A stretch of 64,000 nt of DNA, taken from contig CP121691.1 in the NCBI GenBank assembly GCA_038396585.1, forward strand, positions 1,674,001 through 1,738,000. Direction: 5' to 3'. The notes below the pieces were generated by a model. It was not told the DNA's origin. It did no database searches and saw only the letters and a list, made by a program, of their open reading frames with translations. This document shows positions 549-6,670 of this stretch, piece by piece. The position numbers and the translations under genes were made by a program. How positions within the stretch are numbered: position 1 is the stretch's first letter; each line of letters starts with the position of its first letter. Source of the stretch: Vallitaleaceae bacterium 9-2 (lineage in GTDB: Bacteria; Bacillota; Clostridia; Lachnospirales; Vallitaleaceae).

Positions 549-1199
549 ATGATAAAAAGTAAAGCTATATTTGTCTGTGCCGGTTTATTATTCGTCTTGA
601 TTTCAGGGATTATATATATTATGATGGCATCGACGGATGCCGTTGTTTTTCAATCGGAGATTGAAAATGATGAACGTATAACAAAAGAAGGCGTTATTGA
701 TACGGATATTAATCATCTTGATGAGGAAAATGTGGATGCAGAGCTAGACATTACTCAAGAAATCGTCCATAATGATATTGTTGTCTATATATGCGGTAGT
801 GTTACAAATGAAGGTGTATATTCACTTCAAGAAGGCGCGCGCGTATATGAGGCACTTGAACTAGCGGGAGGAATGACGCAAGAGGCGCAGCAAGGACATA
901 TTAACTTAGCCCGTGTACTTGTAGATGGTGAGAGTATATATTTTCCCACGCAAGACGAAGTCAAAACCATAGGGCTAACATGGAGTGAACAAACACAACC
1001 AGAAGATGCGCGAATTAATATTAATACTGCATCTGAAGAAGAATTAACACAGCTTCCTGGAATTGGTTTAGCAAAGGCCAAAGCGATTATCGCATATCGA
1101 AAAAACAATAGTATGTTTAAAAAAATAGAAGATATAATGGAAGTTCCAGGAATCAAAAAAAATACTTTTGAGAATATAAAGGAACAAATATCCATTTAA
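549..1199 (+). CDS. comEA: ComEA, competence DNA receptor
   Basis: This is a membrane-anchored DNA-binding protein that takes up double-stranded DNA at the cell surface and passes it to the ComEC channel. A single N-terminal membrane segment (about residues 5-26) is followed by an acidic linker. An SLBB-type domain lies at about 76-135 (VVYICGSVTNEGVYSL). A C-terminal helix-hairpin-helix domain at about 155-216 has the typical ININTAS and LPGIG motifs. The length of 216 residues is usual for the family. The ATG follows AAAGGAG with normal spacing. comEC lies 3 kb downstream, separated by a two-component system and a lipoprotein gene; in many Firmicutes comEA and comEC are direct neighbours, so this block looks like an insertion into a late-competence operon. 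Confidence 0.93.
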   Translation: MIKSKAIFVCAGLLFVLISGIIYIMMASTDAVVFQSEIENDERITKEGVIDTDINHLDEENVDAELDITQEIVHNDIVVYICGSVTNEGVYSLQEGARVYEALELAGGMTQEAQQGHINLARVLVDGESIYFPTQDEVKTIGLTWSEQTQPEDARININTASEEELTQLPGIGLAKAKAIIAYRKNNSMFKKIEDIMEVPGIKKNTFENIKEQISI

Positions 1200-1220
1200 A
1201 ATAGAATAAGGATGGTTATC

Positions 1221-1913
1221 ATGAAAAAGAGAATTTTAGTGGTGGATGATGAAAAAACAATAGTAAAAGGAATACGATTTAGCTTAGAACAAGAGGGGTA
1301 TGATATTGATAGTGCATATGATGGGGAAGAAGCCTTAAATTATGCCAAGAATCATCAATATGATTTGATTGTCTTGGATGTCATGCTTCCTAAAAAAGAT
1401 GGACTGGAAGTGTGCCGTAATATTCGGGAATTTTCCACGGTTCCAATTATTATGCTGACGGCTAAAGGCGAAGATATGGATAAAATATTGGGACTTGAAT
1501 TTGGCGCAGATGATTATATGACCAAACCGTTTAATGTACTTGAACTGAAAGCTCGAATTAAAGCGATTATTCGAAGAAACAAATATGTCAATAATGAAAG
1601 TGAAGATCAAATGAAGTCACTTCATAAAGGTGACCTTGAAATTCAAAAGGAAAGTCGACGTGTTTTTGTCAAAGAAAGTGAAGTGAATCTAACAGCAAAA
1701 GAGTTTGATTTGTTGGAATTATTCTTAACACATCCAAATAAAGTCTATTCAAGAGATCAGTTATTAAGCATTATATGGGATTATGATTATCCTGGAGATG
1801 CACGTACTGTTGATGTGCATGTGCGAAGGTTACGTGAAAAAATTGAAGAAGTTCCTAGTGAGCCTAGATACATTCATACTAAATGGGGAGTGGGTTATTA
1901 TTATCAACAATAA
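1221..1913 (+). CDS. OmpR/PhoB-family response regulator
   Basis: Two-component response regulator of 230 residues. The receiver domain (about 3-115) has the acidic pair DD at 9-10, the phospho-acceptor Asp53 in VLDVMLP, a conserved Thr in MLTAKG and Lys in TKPF. A winged-helix DNA-binding domain (about 130-230) ends in VDVHVRRLREKIE and a GVGYYY hairpin. I chose the ATG at 1221 because AAGGATGG ends 5 bases before it; an in-frame ATG at 1212 lies inside that ribosome site. The gene overlaps the start of the cognate kinase. Its target genes cannot be read from the sequence. Confidence 0.93.
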   Translation: MKKRILVVDDEKTIVKGIRFSLEQEGYDIDSAYDGEEALNYAKNHQYDLIVLDVMLPKKDGLEVCRNIREFSTVPIIMLTAKGEDMDKILGLEFGADDYMTKPFNVLELKARIKAIIRRNKYVNNESEDQMKSLHKGDLEIQKESRRVFVKESEVNLTAKEFDLLELFLTHPNKVYSRDQLLSIIWDYDYPGDARTVDVHVRRLREKIEEVPSEPRYIHTKWGVGYYYQQ

Positions 1914-3327
1914 GCGCTTTCAAAGTATACGTGTTAAGTTATTTATGAGCTTTATGCTTATAGGTATTATTACAACAATCGTCTTGTCAATTGCATTTAT
2001 CTTTACAATACAACAACGCTATTTGACAGAAAAAAAACGTGAGCTATATCGACAAGCCAATACAATTGCTATTAGCCTTGTGACAACAGGCTATTTTTCT
2101 GATGAACACAATAATTCCTATTTAATGACTGTTCAAGCAAGTGTTAGTGGACGAGGAATGATTATTGACCGAAATGGAAGCATTTTGTTTGATTCGAATC
2201 ATCTTGACGAAGGGAAGTCCCTTGTCAATGCAGAAGTGTTATCTGCGCTGCGTGGCAAAAGTTCATATACATTTTTAGAAGAGATGAATATTGGAGCTGT
2301 CACCGTTCCTATTGTTGATTTGGATTATCAAACAGTTTTAGGAGCCGTTGTTGTTTCAGATTCTTTTAATGATATTACATATTCGATTAAATATTTATGG
2401 AATATTGCACTGTTTTTCATTGTTGGATTAACGGTGATTATTTTTATGCTTAGTTATTATCTGAGCGGATCCTTTAACCGACCGTTCAGACAATTGTTAG
2501 ATCATATTAACCGTATAACCGATGGACATATTGAAGAAAAAGTTCAAATTAAAGGGAATACAGAGATTGAAGAGATAACAACAGCATTTAATCATATGTT
2601 TGAACGCATTGAAGCGATTGAAAGTCATCGCCAAGAGTTTGTTGCCAATGTAAGTCATGAGTTAAAAACACCGATGAGTTCAATTAAAGTATTGGCAGAA
2701 TCGTTAATACATCAACCCGATACCCCCATCGAAATTTATCAAGAGTTTTTATATGATATCAATGAAGAGGTGAATCGCGAGACAAAGATTATTAATGATT
2801 TGTTGACGTTGGTGACTTTAGATAAAAAGGATAATTCACTACGTATTAAAGAAGTGGATGTTAATCAGTTAATCGTGGATGTGATGAAGCGCTTAAAACC
2901 TTTAGCAGACTTAAAAAATATACAGATGCTTTTTGAAAGCTATCGAAATGTTCAAGCGGAAATAGATGATACAAAAATGGAACTTGCCATTACCAATCTT
3001 ATTGAAAATGCCATTAAGTATAACAAGGAATATGGGTATATTAATGTGAGTTTAGATACGGATTTTAAAAACTTTTTCATTAAAATAAAAGATACAGGGG
3101 AAGGAATTTCTCAAGAACATATTGATCAAGTGTTTAGACGGTTTTATCGAGTGGACAAAACCCGGTCAAGAGATACGGGCGGAACGGGTCTTGGATTATC
3201 AATTGTTCAAAAAACCATATATATGCATCAAGGAAGTATAAAATGTAAAAGTGAGCTTGGTCAGTGGACAGAATTTATTGTGACGATGCCAATTAAACAT
3301 ATTAAACGAACGTATGAAGAGGAGTAA
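1858..3327 (+). CDS. Sensor histidine kinase (start uncertain)
   Basis: Membrane histidine kinase partnered with the preceding regulator. After a short cytoplasmic start (KRFQSIRVKLF) there is a first membrane helix, an extracytoplasmic sensor of about 125 residues (Cache-like by size and pattern), a second membrane helix, HAMP, HisKA with the phospho-acceptor His in NVSHELKTP, and a HATPase domain with N box (NLIENAIKYN), DTGEGIS, FRRFYRVD and GGTGLGL. The start is a problem. The natural N-terminus falls near 1897-1909, where the frame has only ATT/ATC codons. The GTG at 1858 has a weak GAAGAAG upstream and is entered as a formal start. ATT at 1897 or 1900, behind GGGGAG at 1885-1890, is the better biological candidate, and ATG 1945 would remove the N-terminus before the first helix. 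The overlap with the regulator implies translational coupling. Confidence 0.9.
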   Translation: MSLDTFILNGEWVIIINNKRFQSIRVKLFMSFMLIGIITTIVLSIAFIFTIQQRYLTEKKRELYRQANTIAISLVTTGYFSDEHNNSYLMTVQASVSGRGMIIDRNGSILFDSNHLDEGKSLVNAEVLSALRGKSSYTFLEEMNIGAVTVPIVDLDYQTVLGAVVVSDSFNDITYSIKYLWNIALFFIVGLTVIIFMLSYYLSGSFNRPFRQLLDHINRITDGHIEEKVQIKGNTEIEEITTAFNHMFERIEAIESHRQEFVANVSHELKTPMSSIKVLAESLIHQPDTPIEIYQEFLYDINEEVNRETKIINDLLTLVTLDKKDNSLRIKEVDVNQLIVDVMKRLKPLADLKNIQMLFESYRNVQAEIDDTKMELAITNLIENAIKYNKEYGYINVSLDTDFKNFFIKIKDTGEGISQEHIDQVFRRFYRVDKTRSRDTGGTGLGLSIVQKTIYMHQGSIKCKSELGQWTEFIVTMPIKHIKRTYEEE

Positions 3328-3330
3328 AAA

Positions 3331-4251
3331 ATGGTAAAAAAAATACTGCTACTTGGATTATGTTTTTTGATGATTACCGGATGTCAAGCTTCATCTAATC
3401 GTTTTCTTCAATCCAGTAGCGAAGCACAGATTTATTTGTTTAATGAAGAGACGCTGGATATTGAACCGGTGGATTTGTATTTAAAAGATATTATTGATAT
3501 TCAAAATGTCAATCAAGTGACACACTATGTACTTAACATGTTATCCCAAGGTGCCAAAAGCTCATCATTAAGTCCAACATTAAAAAAAGAAGTGGAGCTT
3601 GAGTACTACGTATTTAGTGAGGGGAATATGCTTTTGAATTTTAATGAGGCTTATGCTCAGATGAATTCGTTGGAAGAATTAATCGCAAGAAGTTCGCTGG
3701 TACTGAGTCTGACATCCTTTGATATGATAAGCTCGGTAGAAATTGTTGTGGGGGAAGAGGCCCTTATTGATCAAATGGGGAATCGTATTGGACGAATGCG
3801 AAATGAAGATGTCTATTTATCCATGTATGCATCGGCAAATACTACGGTGGATACTCAATTTACTATTTATTGTCCTGCAGATAATCGACGATATTTAAAA
3901 GAAAAAGAAGTGACAATAACGTTGCACCCGAACAAGCACAAAGAAGAGCTTATAGTAGAATACTTAATTGAAGAATCGTCATGTCAGTTTTTGCCGGAAG
4001 AGACCAAAGTATTGGATGTGCAAATTCATGATACGACATGCTATGTGAACTTTAACGAACAATTTTTAACCTCATACCTGCCTGAAGGCATTACAAGCCC
4101 GGTAGCAATTTATGGGATTGTTAATACACTGACTGAACTGAGTAATATTTCGAAGGTTCAGATTTTAGTTGAAGGTGAAATCGTTGATAACTTTCAAGGA
4201 ACATTTCCTTTAAATGTACCTTTAAGCAAAAACTTTCAACTTGTTCAATAA
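3331..4251 (+). CDS. GerM-like lipoprotein with two GerMN domains
   Basis: A lipoprotein signal peptide ends in the lipobox ITGC at residues 16-19. Two GerMN (sporulation/germination) domains follow, at about 30-165 and 175-300, each ending in a similar pattern (LTSFDMISSVEIVVG and LTELSNISKVQILVEG). B. subtilis GerM has the same two-domain layout and functions in sporulation, and GerMN domains are thought to bind cell-wall components. The ATG at 3331 is 3 bases after the kinase stop and has a GAGGAG site inside the kinase 3' end, so the two are almost certainly co-expressed. The position after a regulator-kinase pair matches LpqB, the GerMN lipoprotein behind MtrAB in Actinobacteria. A role in modulating this kinase is therefore an inference. 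Confidence 0.85.
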   Translation: MVKKILLLGLCFLMITGCQASSNRFLQSSSEAQIYLFNEETLDIEPVDLYLKDIIDIQNVNQVTHYVLNMLSQGAKSSSLSPTLKKEVELEYYVFSEGNMLLNFNEAYAQMNSLEELIARSSLVLSLTSFDMISSVEIVVGEEALIDQMGNRIGRMRNEDVYLSMYASANTTVDTQFTIYCPADNRRYLKEKEVTITLHPNKHKEELIVEYLIEESSCQFLPEETKVLDVQIHDTTCYVNFNEQFLTSYLPEGITSPVAIYGIVNTLTELSNISKVQILVEGEIVDNFQGTFPLNVPLSKNFQLVQ

Positions 4252-4266
4252 TAGGAGGTGATGTGA

Positions 4267-5679
4267 ATCAAAAGATATATCCTGAAAAAGTATAGTATAC
4301 ATATTTTACTTGTATTATTATCTATAATTCGTGTATGGCAATATACGGATGCCTATTTTGAGGCACTAGAATATATTGAATCCATAGATTCAATAGAAAT
4401 AGAAGTTCAAATAAATGATATCCGGCAAACTCAATATGGATATTCATGTCATTTTACAATTCTAAAGCCGATGAAGACCGCTTCTCTAGCAAATTATACC
4501 GGTTATTTTTATTTAAATAAACAGCAGCAATCTAAATATTTTCCAAATCTCAACCAAGAAAAACATAAATACATACATCAAAAATACCGTCTTCAGGGAC
4601 AATTTGAAAAAGCATGGTATCCAAGAAATCCGGGGCAGACCCACCCGCTTATTTATTTGATGGGCAAAAAAGCTTTTGGGGCATTTGACTATGAGCATTT
4701 AGAAAAGATTGTAGTACAGCAAAGCTCAAGACAACATTTTATCAGCAGCCTGAAGAAAAAAAGTGCATTTATTCGATTGCGCAGTATTAAAAAAATTGAG
4801 CAACAATTGGCAGAGTGTTTTGGAAAAGTAGAGTATGGCTTGCTAAAAGCAATGATTTTAGGAGATAAGTCGTCATTAGATGCTGATATTGTAACAAAAT
4901 ACTCAAACCATGGATTGTCACATATATTGGCTATATCCGGTCTGCATATTATGATTTTTATTGGATGTCTGGAGTATTTTTTTAGAAGCTTGTTATTGCC
5001 AAAAACATATAGATTATGGCTGGTTTTTTTGCTCTTAGTTATATATATATGGATGCTTGGATTTATTGTTAGTGCTATTCGTGCCATTGCGTTGGGAACA
5101 AGCTTGATTTTTTCGATTGCATATGATTATACATATAATCGTCACCGTATGCTTCTTTTAATCTTAAGTGCTTTTCTTATTATAACACCTTATGTGTTGT
5201 TTTCTATAAGCTTTATGCTTTCCTTCGGAGCGGTGTTTGCTTTATTTTTTCTTTATCCGATTTTGAAGAGATCATATCAGTCGCTTCATACAAAATTCCT
5301 TATCCGTTTTATTCTAGACTCACTCAATGTTAGCTTTAGCATTTCGCTGATGACATTTCCCATTCTCCTATATTTTTTTAGAGGGATTTCCTTATCTAGT
5401 TTCATCGTAAATATTTTTGTGTTACCCAGTATTCCTTTGTTTTATACAGCATCGATAATCGCACTTGGAGCAAGTTTTATCCATCAGATGCTTGGACGCT
5501 TTTTGGCAGGGACGGCAACCATTTTTTCGTCTTATATATTAGCGGTTATTGAATTCTTTAATCATAAGTATAATTTTTTGAACCACAGAGCATTATCGTT
5601 ACCAAGTGTTTTGCTATATTATTCGGGACTCATTCTTCTTATTTTTATTTGCCATATGAAGGGAGGAGAAGATGATTAA
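4267..5679 (+). CDS. comEC: ComEC membrane channel part (lacks the metallo-beta-lactamase domain; non-ATG start)
   Basis: Polytopic competence protein that moves single-stranded DNA across the membrane. From 4267 the frame reads a basic start (KRYILKKYS), a first membrane helix, an OB-like DUF4131 region up to about residue 145, and the multi-helix Competence domain with GLSHILAISGLHI. The frame has no ATG, GTG or TTG before the ATG at 4471, which would remove the first helix and most of the OB region. A perfect 10-base ribosome site AGGAGGTGAT (4253-4262) sits 8 bases before ATC at 4267, so ATC initiation or a start-codon mutation is likely. The ATG at 4261 is followed at once by TGA, and GTG 4263 opens only 10 codons. 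If ATC is not used, the gene is 4471-5679. The metallo-beta-lactamase domain is encoded by the next gene. Confidence 0.8.
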   Translation: MKRYILKKYSIHILLVLLSIIRVWQYTDAYFEALEYIESIDSIEIEVQINDIRQTQYGYSCHFTILKPMKTASLANYTGYFYLNKQQQSKYFPNLNQEKHKYIHQKYRLQGQFEKAWYPRNPGQTHPLIYLMGKKAFGAFDYEHLEKIVVQQSSRQHFISSLKKKSAFIRLRSIKKIEQQLAECFGKVEYGLLKAMILGDKSSLDADIVTKYSNHGLSHILAISGLHIMIFIGCLEYFFRSLLLPKTYRLWLVFLLLVIYIWMLGFIVSAIRAIALGTSLIFSIAYDYTYNRHRMLLLILSAFLIITPYVLFSISFMLSFGAVFALFFLYPILKRSYQSLHTKFLIRFILDSLNVSFSISLMTFPILLYFFRGISLSSFIVNIFVLPSIPLFYTASIIALGASFIHQMLGRFLAGTATIFSSYILAVIEFFNHKYNFLNHRALSLPSVLLYYSGLILLIFICHMKGGEDD

Positions 5680-6670
5680 AGTTGGACGTCAACACGAGGA
5701 CAAAATTCTCAAGAAAAAAACCTTGTACTGCTGCCGTATACTGTTAAAAATAATTGGGATATTCAGTGTTATTTTTATAATGATGCATAGTATCGTTATC
5801 ATGTATCAAAAAGATACAACACGGCTGTTTTTTTTAGATGTAGGTCAAGGCGATGCATGTGTGATTACCCATAACGAACAGACATTTCTCGTTGATGGTG
5901 GAGGCAATAGGTATATGGATGAAGAAAACAATATGGGAATGCGTGTTATTTATCCGTTTTTGTTATATAAAGGGATTGATAATATAGATGTAGCTTTTAT
6001 AAGCCACATGCATTATGATCATATCAAAGGCGTGTTAGAACTTTTTGATGAGATTAAGATAAAAAAAGTAGCAGTAAGTCATGTATATAAGAGCATTGTA
6101 GAAGATGAACAGCAACTTCAAGAACATGTACTTTTAAATGAACTAATCAAAAAGTGTAAACAAACAAATACAGAATTGATTTTTGTTAAAGAAGGAGATG
6201 TGTTTTTAGGTGATGGCATAAAATTTGTCTGTCATTATCCTTTTTCGGAAACAGAATATGAAGAAGATGAAAATAAAAACTCCATGGTTTTAGAATTAAA
6301 GACATGGCAACAACAGATATTATTTACGGGTGACATAGAGGCTGACGTAGAGGAAGCTATTGAAAAAAAGGATGTAGATATTTATGGAATGGATGTATTA
6401 AAAGTAGCACATCATGGCTCAGCAACTTCATCCTCGCAACAATTTTTAGAAAGGACACATCCGACAGTAGGCATTATTAGTGTCGGGGAGAATAGGCACG
6501 GACATCCTAGCCAAGAGGTCATTGCACGATATAACAAATTAAAAATTCCCGTGTATCTCACTATGGATTATGGTATGATAGAGGTTAGTATAAATCGTAA
6601 ACATTTAAAAATAAAGACGCATTTAAGAAGGAATAATGATGAAACAGTTAAAAGAAGATATAAAAAATAG
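5672..6670 (+). CDS. ComEC-type metallo-beta-lactamase domain protein
   Basis: A separate gene for the part that forms the C-terminus of ComEC in most bacteria. It has its own membrane helix at about 25-46, then the ComEC-type LDVGQGDA motif at 55-62 and the metal-binding HMHYDH at 112-117. Later motifs include FTGDIE and KVAHHGS, and GENRHGHPS near the C-terminus. Known ComEC domains of this type are proposed to degrade the non-transported DNA strand. The gene has its own GGAGGAG site and ATG and overlaps the channel gene by 8 bases. The membrane anchor and ribosome site indicate a stable gene split rather than a sequencing frameshift. Confidence 0.87.
   Translation: MIKVGRQHEDKILKKKTLYCCRILLKIIGIFSVIFIMMHSIVIMYQKDTTRLFFLDVGQGDACVITHNEQTFLVDGGGNRYMDEENNMGMRVIYPFLLYKGIDNIDVAFISHMHYDHIKGVLELFDEIKIKKVAVSHVYKSIVEDEQQLQEHVLLNELIKKCKQTNTELIFVKEGDVFLGDGIKFVCHYPFSETEYEEDENKNSMVLELKTWQQQILFTGDIEADVEEAIEKKDVDIYGMDVLKVAHHGSATSSSQQFLERTHPTVGIISVGENRHGHPSQEVIARYNKLKIPVYLTMDYGMIEVSINRKHLKIKTHLRRNNDETVKRRYKK

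Follow-up and report, generated by a model that had tools for sequence, protein, structure and literature searches.

Introduction

To our knowledge, very few bacterial genes outside infC keep AUU, AUC or AUA (AUH) as start codons. One of them, pcnB of Escherichia coli (AUU), is reportedly limited in yield by its weak start, as is proposed here for comEC, although the two genes are unrelated. The gene of initiation factor IF3, infC, shares with the comEC described below an AUH start behind an extended Shine-Dalgarno (SD) sequence and is known to be regulated by IF3 in a feedback loop (studies in E. coli, cited in the accessible part of PMC13009471), whereas no connection of comEC with initiation is known. 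Conserved non-canonical starts have further been described in Staphylococcus aureus for cvfC1 (AUU), ccpN (AUA), infC (AUA) and, in a strain lineage, citZ (AUA), with reporters giving about 10% of the AUG yield in poor medium, a figure that for ccpN rose to as much as 30% when the medium was rich (accessible part of PMC13009471). These cases resemble comEC in combining an extended SD with a conserved AUH start; they were, however, established by profiling and reporters, while comEC is known here from sequence alone. Neither comEC nor competence occurs in the accessible text of that paper (0 occurrences). For Listeria, the available portion of PMC13068326 reports infC (ATT) and rnhC (ATC) as fixed non-canonical starts, a yield of rsbW lowered by ATA and ATT, and comEC among 39 genes with flexible start codons. 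This flexibility mostly concerns ATG, GTG and TTG, and the codons of comEC are not named in that portion of the text, so that a non-AUG comEC is not claimed there (PMC13068326). No report of a non-AUG comEC start or of a split comEC was found in the open literature searched.

The Proposed comEC Start Site

The locus lies in a window of 64,000 nucleotides (the whole stretch of DNA analysed) of Vallitaleaceae bacterium 9-2, the genome of which is a single contig of 3.81 Mb. Among its near relatives are the Clostridiales bacteria UBA4039 (locus L031) and UBA2432 (locus L032; the same contig was seen as G001). The features around the start are as follows.

3331 to 4251, + strand: GerMN-domain (Germane) lipoprotein-like gene directly upstream of comEC; stop at 4249-4251, 15 nt before the ATC
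4253 to 4262, + strand: extended SD sequence AGGAGGTGAT, the full complement of the 16S 3' end, -16.4 kcal/mol
4261 to 4266, + strand: ATG TGA, a start with an immediate stop, in frame with comEC; found in L031 but not in L032
4263 to 4295, + strand: GTG mini-frame of 10 codons (VNQKIYPEKV) in another frame, with its stop TAG at 4293-4295; not conserved in L032
4267 to 4269, + strand: ATC, proposed start codon of comEC, the first codon after the in-frame TGA 4264-4266; AUH in relatives
4267 to 5679, + strand: comEC, N-terminal part (membrane helix, soluble region, competence domain), 470 aa; PF03772, E 1.3e-45
4471 to 4473, + strand: ATG, the first canonical in-frame codon, not a credible start; SD +2.7 and not Met in L032

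Direct reading of the + strand places the AGGAGG core of the SD at 4253-4258, with ATC 4267-4269 following 8 nt past this core and 4 nt past the 10-mer. Five 16S copies were found in the genome, each with GGATCACCTCCTTTCT as its 3' end, so all ten bases can pair, and the duplex energy is -16.4 kcal/mol for ATC 4267 versus +2.7 for ATG 4471. From the stop of the GerMN-domain gene onward, the comEC frame reads TAA, TAG, GAG, GTG, ATG and TGA before ATC 4267, and ATG, GTG and TTG are absent from it between this ATC and ATG 4471. Since the frame is closed by TGA 4264 and holds none of these codons until 4471, translation most likely begins at ATC 4267. The original prediction had described the ten-base anti-16S match, its distance of 8 bases from the ATC, the ATG at 4261 that meets TGA at once, the GTG at 4263 that opens ten codons of another frame and the lack of canonical in-frame codons before 4471; each of these is borne out by the sequence, as are the basic start and membrane helix that it ascribed to the product (four Lys/Arg among residues 1-12, and a hydrophobic stretch from residue 5).

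When 58 open reading frames of the window were surveyed mechanically, eight rows were flagged, among them comEC and the histidine-kinase frame at 1768 (see below); six rows had a canonical start or a candidate deep within the frame. The single listed start with a stronger SD than that of comEC, and the strongest of the survey, was ATG 47184 (-16.5).

Start Codons in Related Genomes

The site is retained in L031 (93% identical protein) as AAGGAGGTGATGTGA-ATC with an SD of -17.3, and G059 (locus L034), labelled as the same species, equals L031 in frame and energy. L032 (54% identical) reads AAGGAGGTAAAACGA-ATA (-17.2); compared with the window, the SD, the 8-nt gap and the place are kept, while the spacer bases and the third codon base differ. 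Locus L003 of genome G002, with a comEC product 28% identical, has TAG followed by TGTGGTGAT-ATT-ATT-AAA behind a weak SD (-7.4), with no canonical codon ahead of a TTG within the first helix; this genome weighs less because of its weaker SD and a comEC frame that ends near the contig end. A non-canonical comEC start is common to all four genomes of the genus, a sample of only four whose starts share ancestry, and the SD is strong in the window, L031 and L032 and weak in L003. In-frame TTG codons occur 8 codons after the ATA in L032, 13 and 17 codons after the ATC in L031 and within the first helix in L003, none of them preceded by an SD; as candidate alternative starts they count against the ATC reading. 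Comparison of start codons among relatives had been set beforehand as a test of the original prediction. None of the relatives begins at the equivalent of 4471, and the presence of ATC, ATA and ATT at the same place (L031, L032 and L003, respectively), with the SD kept, supports the predicted initiation at ATC.

A comEC gene was found in 57 of 59 genomes, and 58 loci were read from the start of the open frame onward. Outside the genus, a canonical start codon is present in the N-terminal part of the comEC frame in 54/54 loci; the presumed starts are mostly MKRP-like, with GTG in L004 and TTG in L010. L027, from another family, was considered as a further case for its Ile-Lys-Arg-Tyr near the N-terminus and was rejected, its ATT being without an SD and an ATG standing at the head of the frame. 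Seven other cluster genes were set against their counterparts in L031 and L032: in six of them the ATG is conserved in position to within one codon, and the remaining one, a histidine kinase gene, has no clear start. Such a start has been retained while the protein diverged by about 46% and the codon itself shifted among AUC, AUA and perhaps AUU, which suggests that the weakness of the start is itself under selection.

Coding Evidence for Codons 2-68

Compared with L032, codons 2-68 align in the comEC frame at 44% identity (E 3.6e-21), while six of the eight other frame pairs give no alignment and two give weak ones (E 0.007 and 0.048). Changes by codon position number 24/16/40 against L032, a third-position excess (p 0.004), and 2/1/5 against L031, where the bias is not significant (p 0.20). 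The dN/dS of this stretch is 0.022/0.115 (L031) and 0.42/1.94 (L032), or about 0.2, as compared to 0.038/0.138 (L031) and 0.34/2.41 (L032) for the remainder of comEC; values of 0.14-0.27 across both parts of the gene denote purifying selection. Frame-specific identity, codon-position changes and dN/dS together indicate that codons 2-68 are translated and kept.

Organisation of the Gene Cluster and the Split ComEC

The further genes of the cluster considered here are listed below.

549 to 1199, + strand: comEA
1897 to 3327, + strand: histidine kinase gene, open frame from 1768; start at AUU/AUC 1897-1905 or at a canonical codon inside the response-regulator gene
5672 to 6670, + strand: metallo-beta-lactamase part of ComEC as a separate gene (PF00753 and the C-terminal part of TIGR00361); ATG kept in L031 and L032

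The gene order is comEA, response regulator, histidine kinase, GerMN-domain gene, comEC, metallo-beta-lactamase gene, holA-like gene and rpsT, the names of the last two, downstream of the metallo-beta-lactamase gene, being our own reading. The response regulator, histidine kinase and GerMN-domain gene lie between comEA and comEC (window 549-6670), and the kinase is close to comEC in other genera too.

The product of comEC carries the competence domain PF03772 (E 1.3e-45), and the C-terminal metallo-beta-lactamase part is not in the same protein: the two genes score 120.3 and 141.6 bits against TIGR00361, each under the cut-off of 190.05, and cover positions 76-354 and 415-659 of the profile. 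This split is seen in the window, L031 and L032, and the split protein would work like a two-piece ComEC. The ATG of the metallo-beta-lactamase gene overlaps the end of comEC in all three (window 4267-6670). Nearly all loci read in other genera have one ComEC protein (open frame of about 635-832 codons). The comEC frame of G002 reaches a stop close to the contig end (L109:6111-6227), perhaps an assembly edge, and a split is not judgeable there.

ComEC of this genus has a shorter N-terminus, lacking about 37 residues that come directly after MKR in other genera. Pfam gave no OB/DUF4131 match (E 0.1), and the OB region named in the original prediction is thus no more than a candidate. The alignment to profiles of other genera covers residues 105-461 and leaves out the first 104, and with them any match of the ATC to the ATG (MKRP) of those genera. 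The structure model of the 470-aa protein was poor (pLDDT 41.5, three-row alignment) and was left unused. DprA and T2SSE-type ATPases are each present in 4/4 genomes of the genus; DNA uptake is thus not plainly lost.

The Histidine Kinase as a Candidate Second Case

Two genes upstream of comEC, the histidine kinase (window 1768-3327, start region 1843-1960) is without a convincing canonical start. Its start region was compared with L031:3501-3700, L032:3544-3700, L109:2493-2660 and L158-L170. In the window, the kinase frame holds no canonical codon between GTG 1858, which is without an SD, and ATG 1945, a codon of the first membrane helix in whose place L032 has ATT. In the window, L031 and L032, ATT 1897, ATT 1900 and ATC 1903 stand behind GGGGAG (-7.9 to -9.6); G002 has comparable codons after GGGGTG, and the pattern extends to part of the family. 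By our tally, 9 of 13 family genomes have GTG or TTG just before the Ile codons, overlapping the SD; of the other four, L169 and L170 carry an ATG preceded by an SD, L158 has its ATG four codons further on, and L167 lacks both kinds of codon. The last codons of the response-regulator gene run through this stretch, and the protein sequence that they specify (WGVGYYY) fixes the SD-like bases as well as the Ile codons, so that conservation there is no proof of a kinase start. An ATG further up inside the response-regulator gene may offer another start, and the kinase may be a second gene with an AUH start.

infC and the Genome Screen

The same genomes hold an AUU start in another gene: infC, intact, begins at ATT behind AGGAGGTG in G000, G059, G001 and G002, and an IF3 gene is present in 8/8 genomes searched. 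A sequence similar to this infC start region, AGGAGGTGTAGGACAATA, occurs at a different place (G001:C48:124403-124420). Screening the genome for AGGAGGT-N6-8-ATH gave 67 matches and the backward-pattern control 108, so the pattern by itself proves nothing. Of these matches, 46 were read as DNA and 19 were excluded on annotation or visual inspection, 17 of them because the spacer holds an ATG (judged by eye), one for its overlap with a tRNA and one for its place inside a gene of the window. Among the 67, only the infC and comEC matches stand at the head of a long frame that has no usual start close by. L116, L134 and L143, tried as further AUH starts, proved on re-reading to lie inside genes with ATG starts. 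Being based on AGGAGGT, the screen misses weaker SDs, for example that of the kinase.

Alternative Explanations

Translation from a canonical codon further in would yield a shorter ComEC and leave 4267-4470 as a leader; ATG 4471 does head a 402-aa frame with the whole competence domain, which gene finders would call, but it has no SD (+2.7), L032 has no Met at its place and codons 2-68 are conserved as protein, which together make such a start quite unlikely. A start at GTG 4263 with a subsequent +1 shift into the frame of comEC, which the original prediction had offered, draws on a GTG close behind the SD in the window and L031. Nevertheless, its spacing from the SD core is only 4 nt, and L032 keeps the SD, the spacing and the protein while having neither a GTG there nor an open mini-frame, and this route is considered highly improbable. 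Nothing beyond the oddity of an ATC start speaks for a base error of the assembly, whereas ATC recurs in an independent assembly and ATA and ATT stand in other species; as each of the three relatives, one of them from the same species, was assembled separately, the probability of such an error is practically negligible. Read-through or a shift from the GerMN-domain gene was likewise rejected: three in-frame stops separate it from comEC in the window, and the frames of the two genes stand in three different relations in the window, L031 and L032, so this is not a common way in.

A decaying comEC, its start codon lost while competence is being given up, would be in keeping with a weak start codon, with the separation from the nuclease-like part and with the absence of the first about 37 residues after MKR. 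Decay is nonetheless very unlikely in view of dN/dS values of 0.14-0.27 in both gene parts, a frame open in 4/4 genomes of the genus, the strong SD kept, and the presence of the metallo-beta-lactamase gene, comEA, DprA (4/4) and T2SSE-type ATPases (4/4). The related suggestion of the original prediction, a recent start mutation that weakened competence, does not agree with a genus-wide non-AUG start and purifying selection on the protein. An RNA structure hiding the start site was rejected as well, since the start-region folds of four species sequences were no more stable than shuffles (z 0.77, 0.12, 2.68 and 0.91), that of L032 being clearly less stable; no Rfam match was found within the window. 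An unusual initiator tRNA was likewise set aside: among the 35 loci fetched out of 54 tRNA matches, ARAGORN gave no initiator-like tRNA with an Ile anticodon and one initiator-like tRNA with anticodon CAU (the initiator stem being our own recognition).

Proposed Mechanism and Significance

Initiation of comEC at AUC 4267 behind the extended SD, keeping ComEC low through inefficient AUC, AUA or AUU initiation, is very probably the explanation of this locus. The ten-pair SD, with its core 8 nt upstream, would hold the 30S subunit on the start codon, where initiation would occur with fMet; the initiator tRNA would read AUC badly, and the channel protein would be made at a low, steady rate. Ribosomes ending the upstream GerMN-domain gene 12-17 nt before may feed the start site. 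Selection would keep ComEC low, and the membrane channel is probably needed in few copies. The low rate is argued by analogy with the AUA and AUU starts of other bacteria.

For annotation, callers accepting only ATG, GTG and TTG cut off the first 68 residues of ComEC, and such genes can be traced through extended SDs that are conserved although no start codon follows them. Control of comEC through IF3 is possible in principle. A wider, speculative and rather unlikely proposal is that the comEA - two-component - GerMN - comEC cluster has AUH starts in two of its genes, comEC (4267) and the histidine kinase gene (1897-1905), such that the level of IF3 or the supply of ribosomes, via the step that controls infC, would set the amounts of channel and sensor kinase and DNA uptake would be tuned by the initiation-factor state. 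At present, comEC is best read as a newly recognised example of an already described type of attenuation, with a lasting low level of ComEC as its likely outcome.
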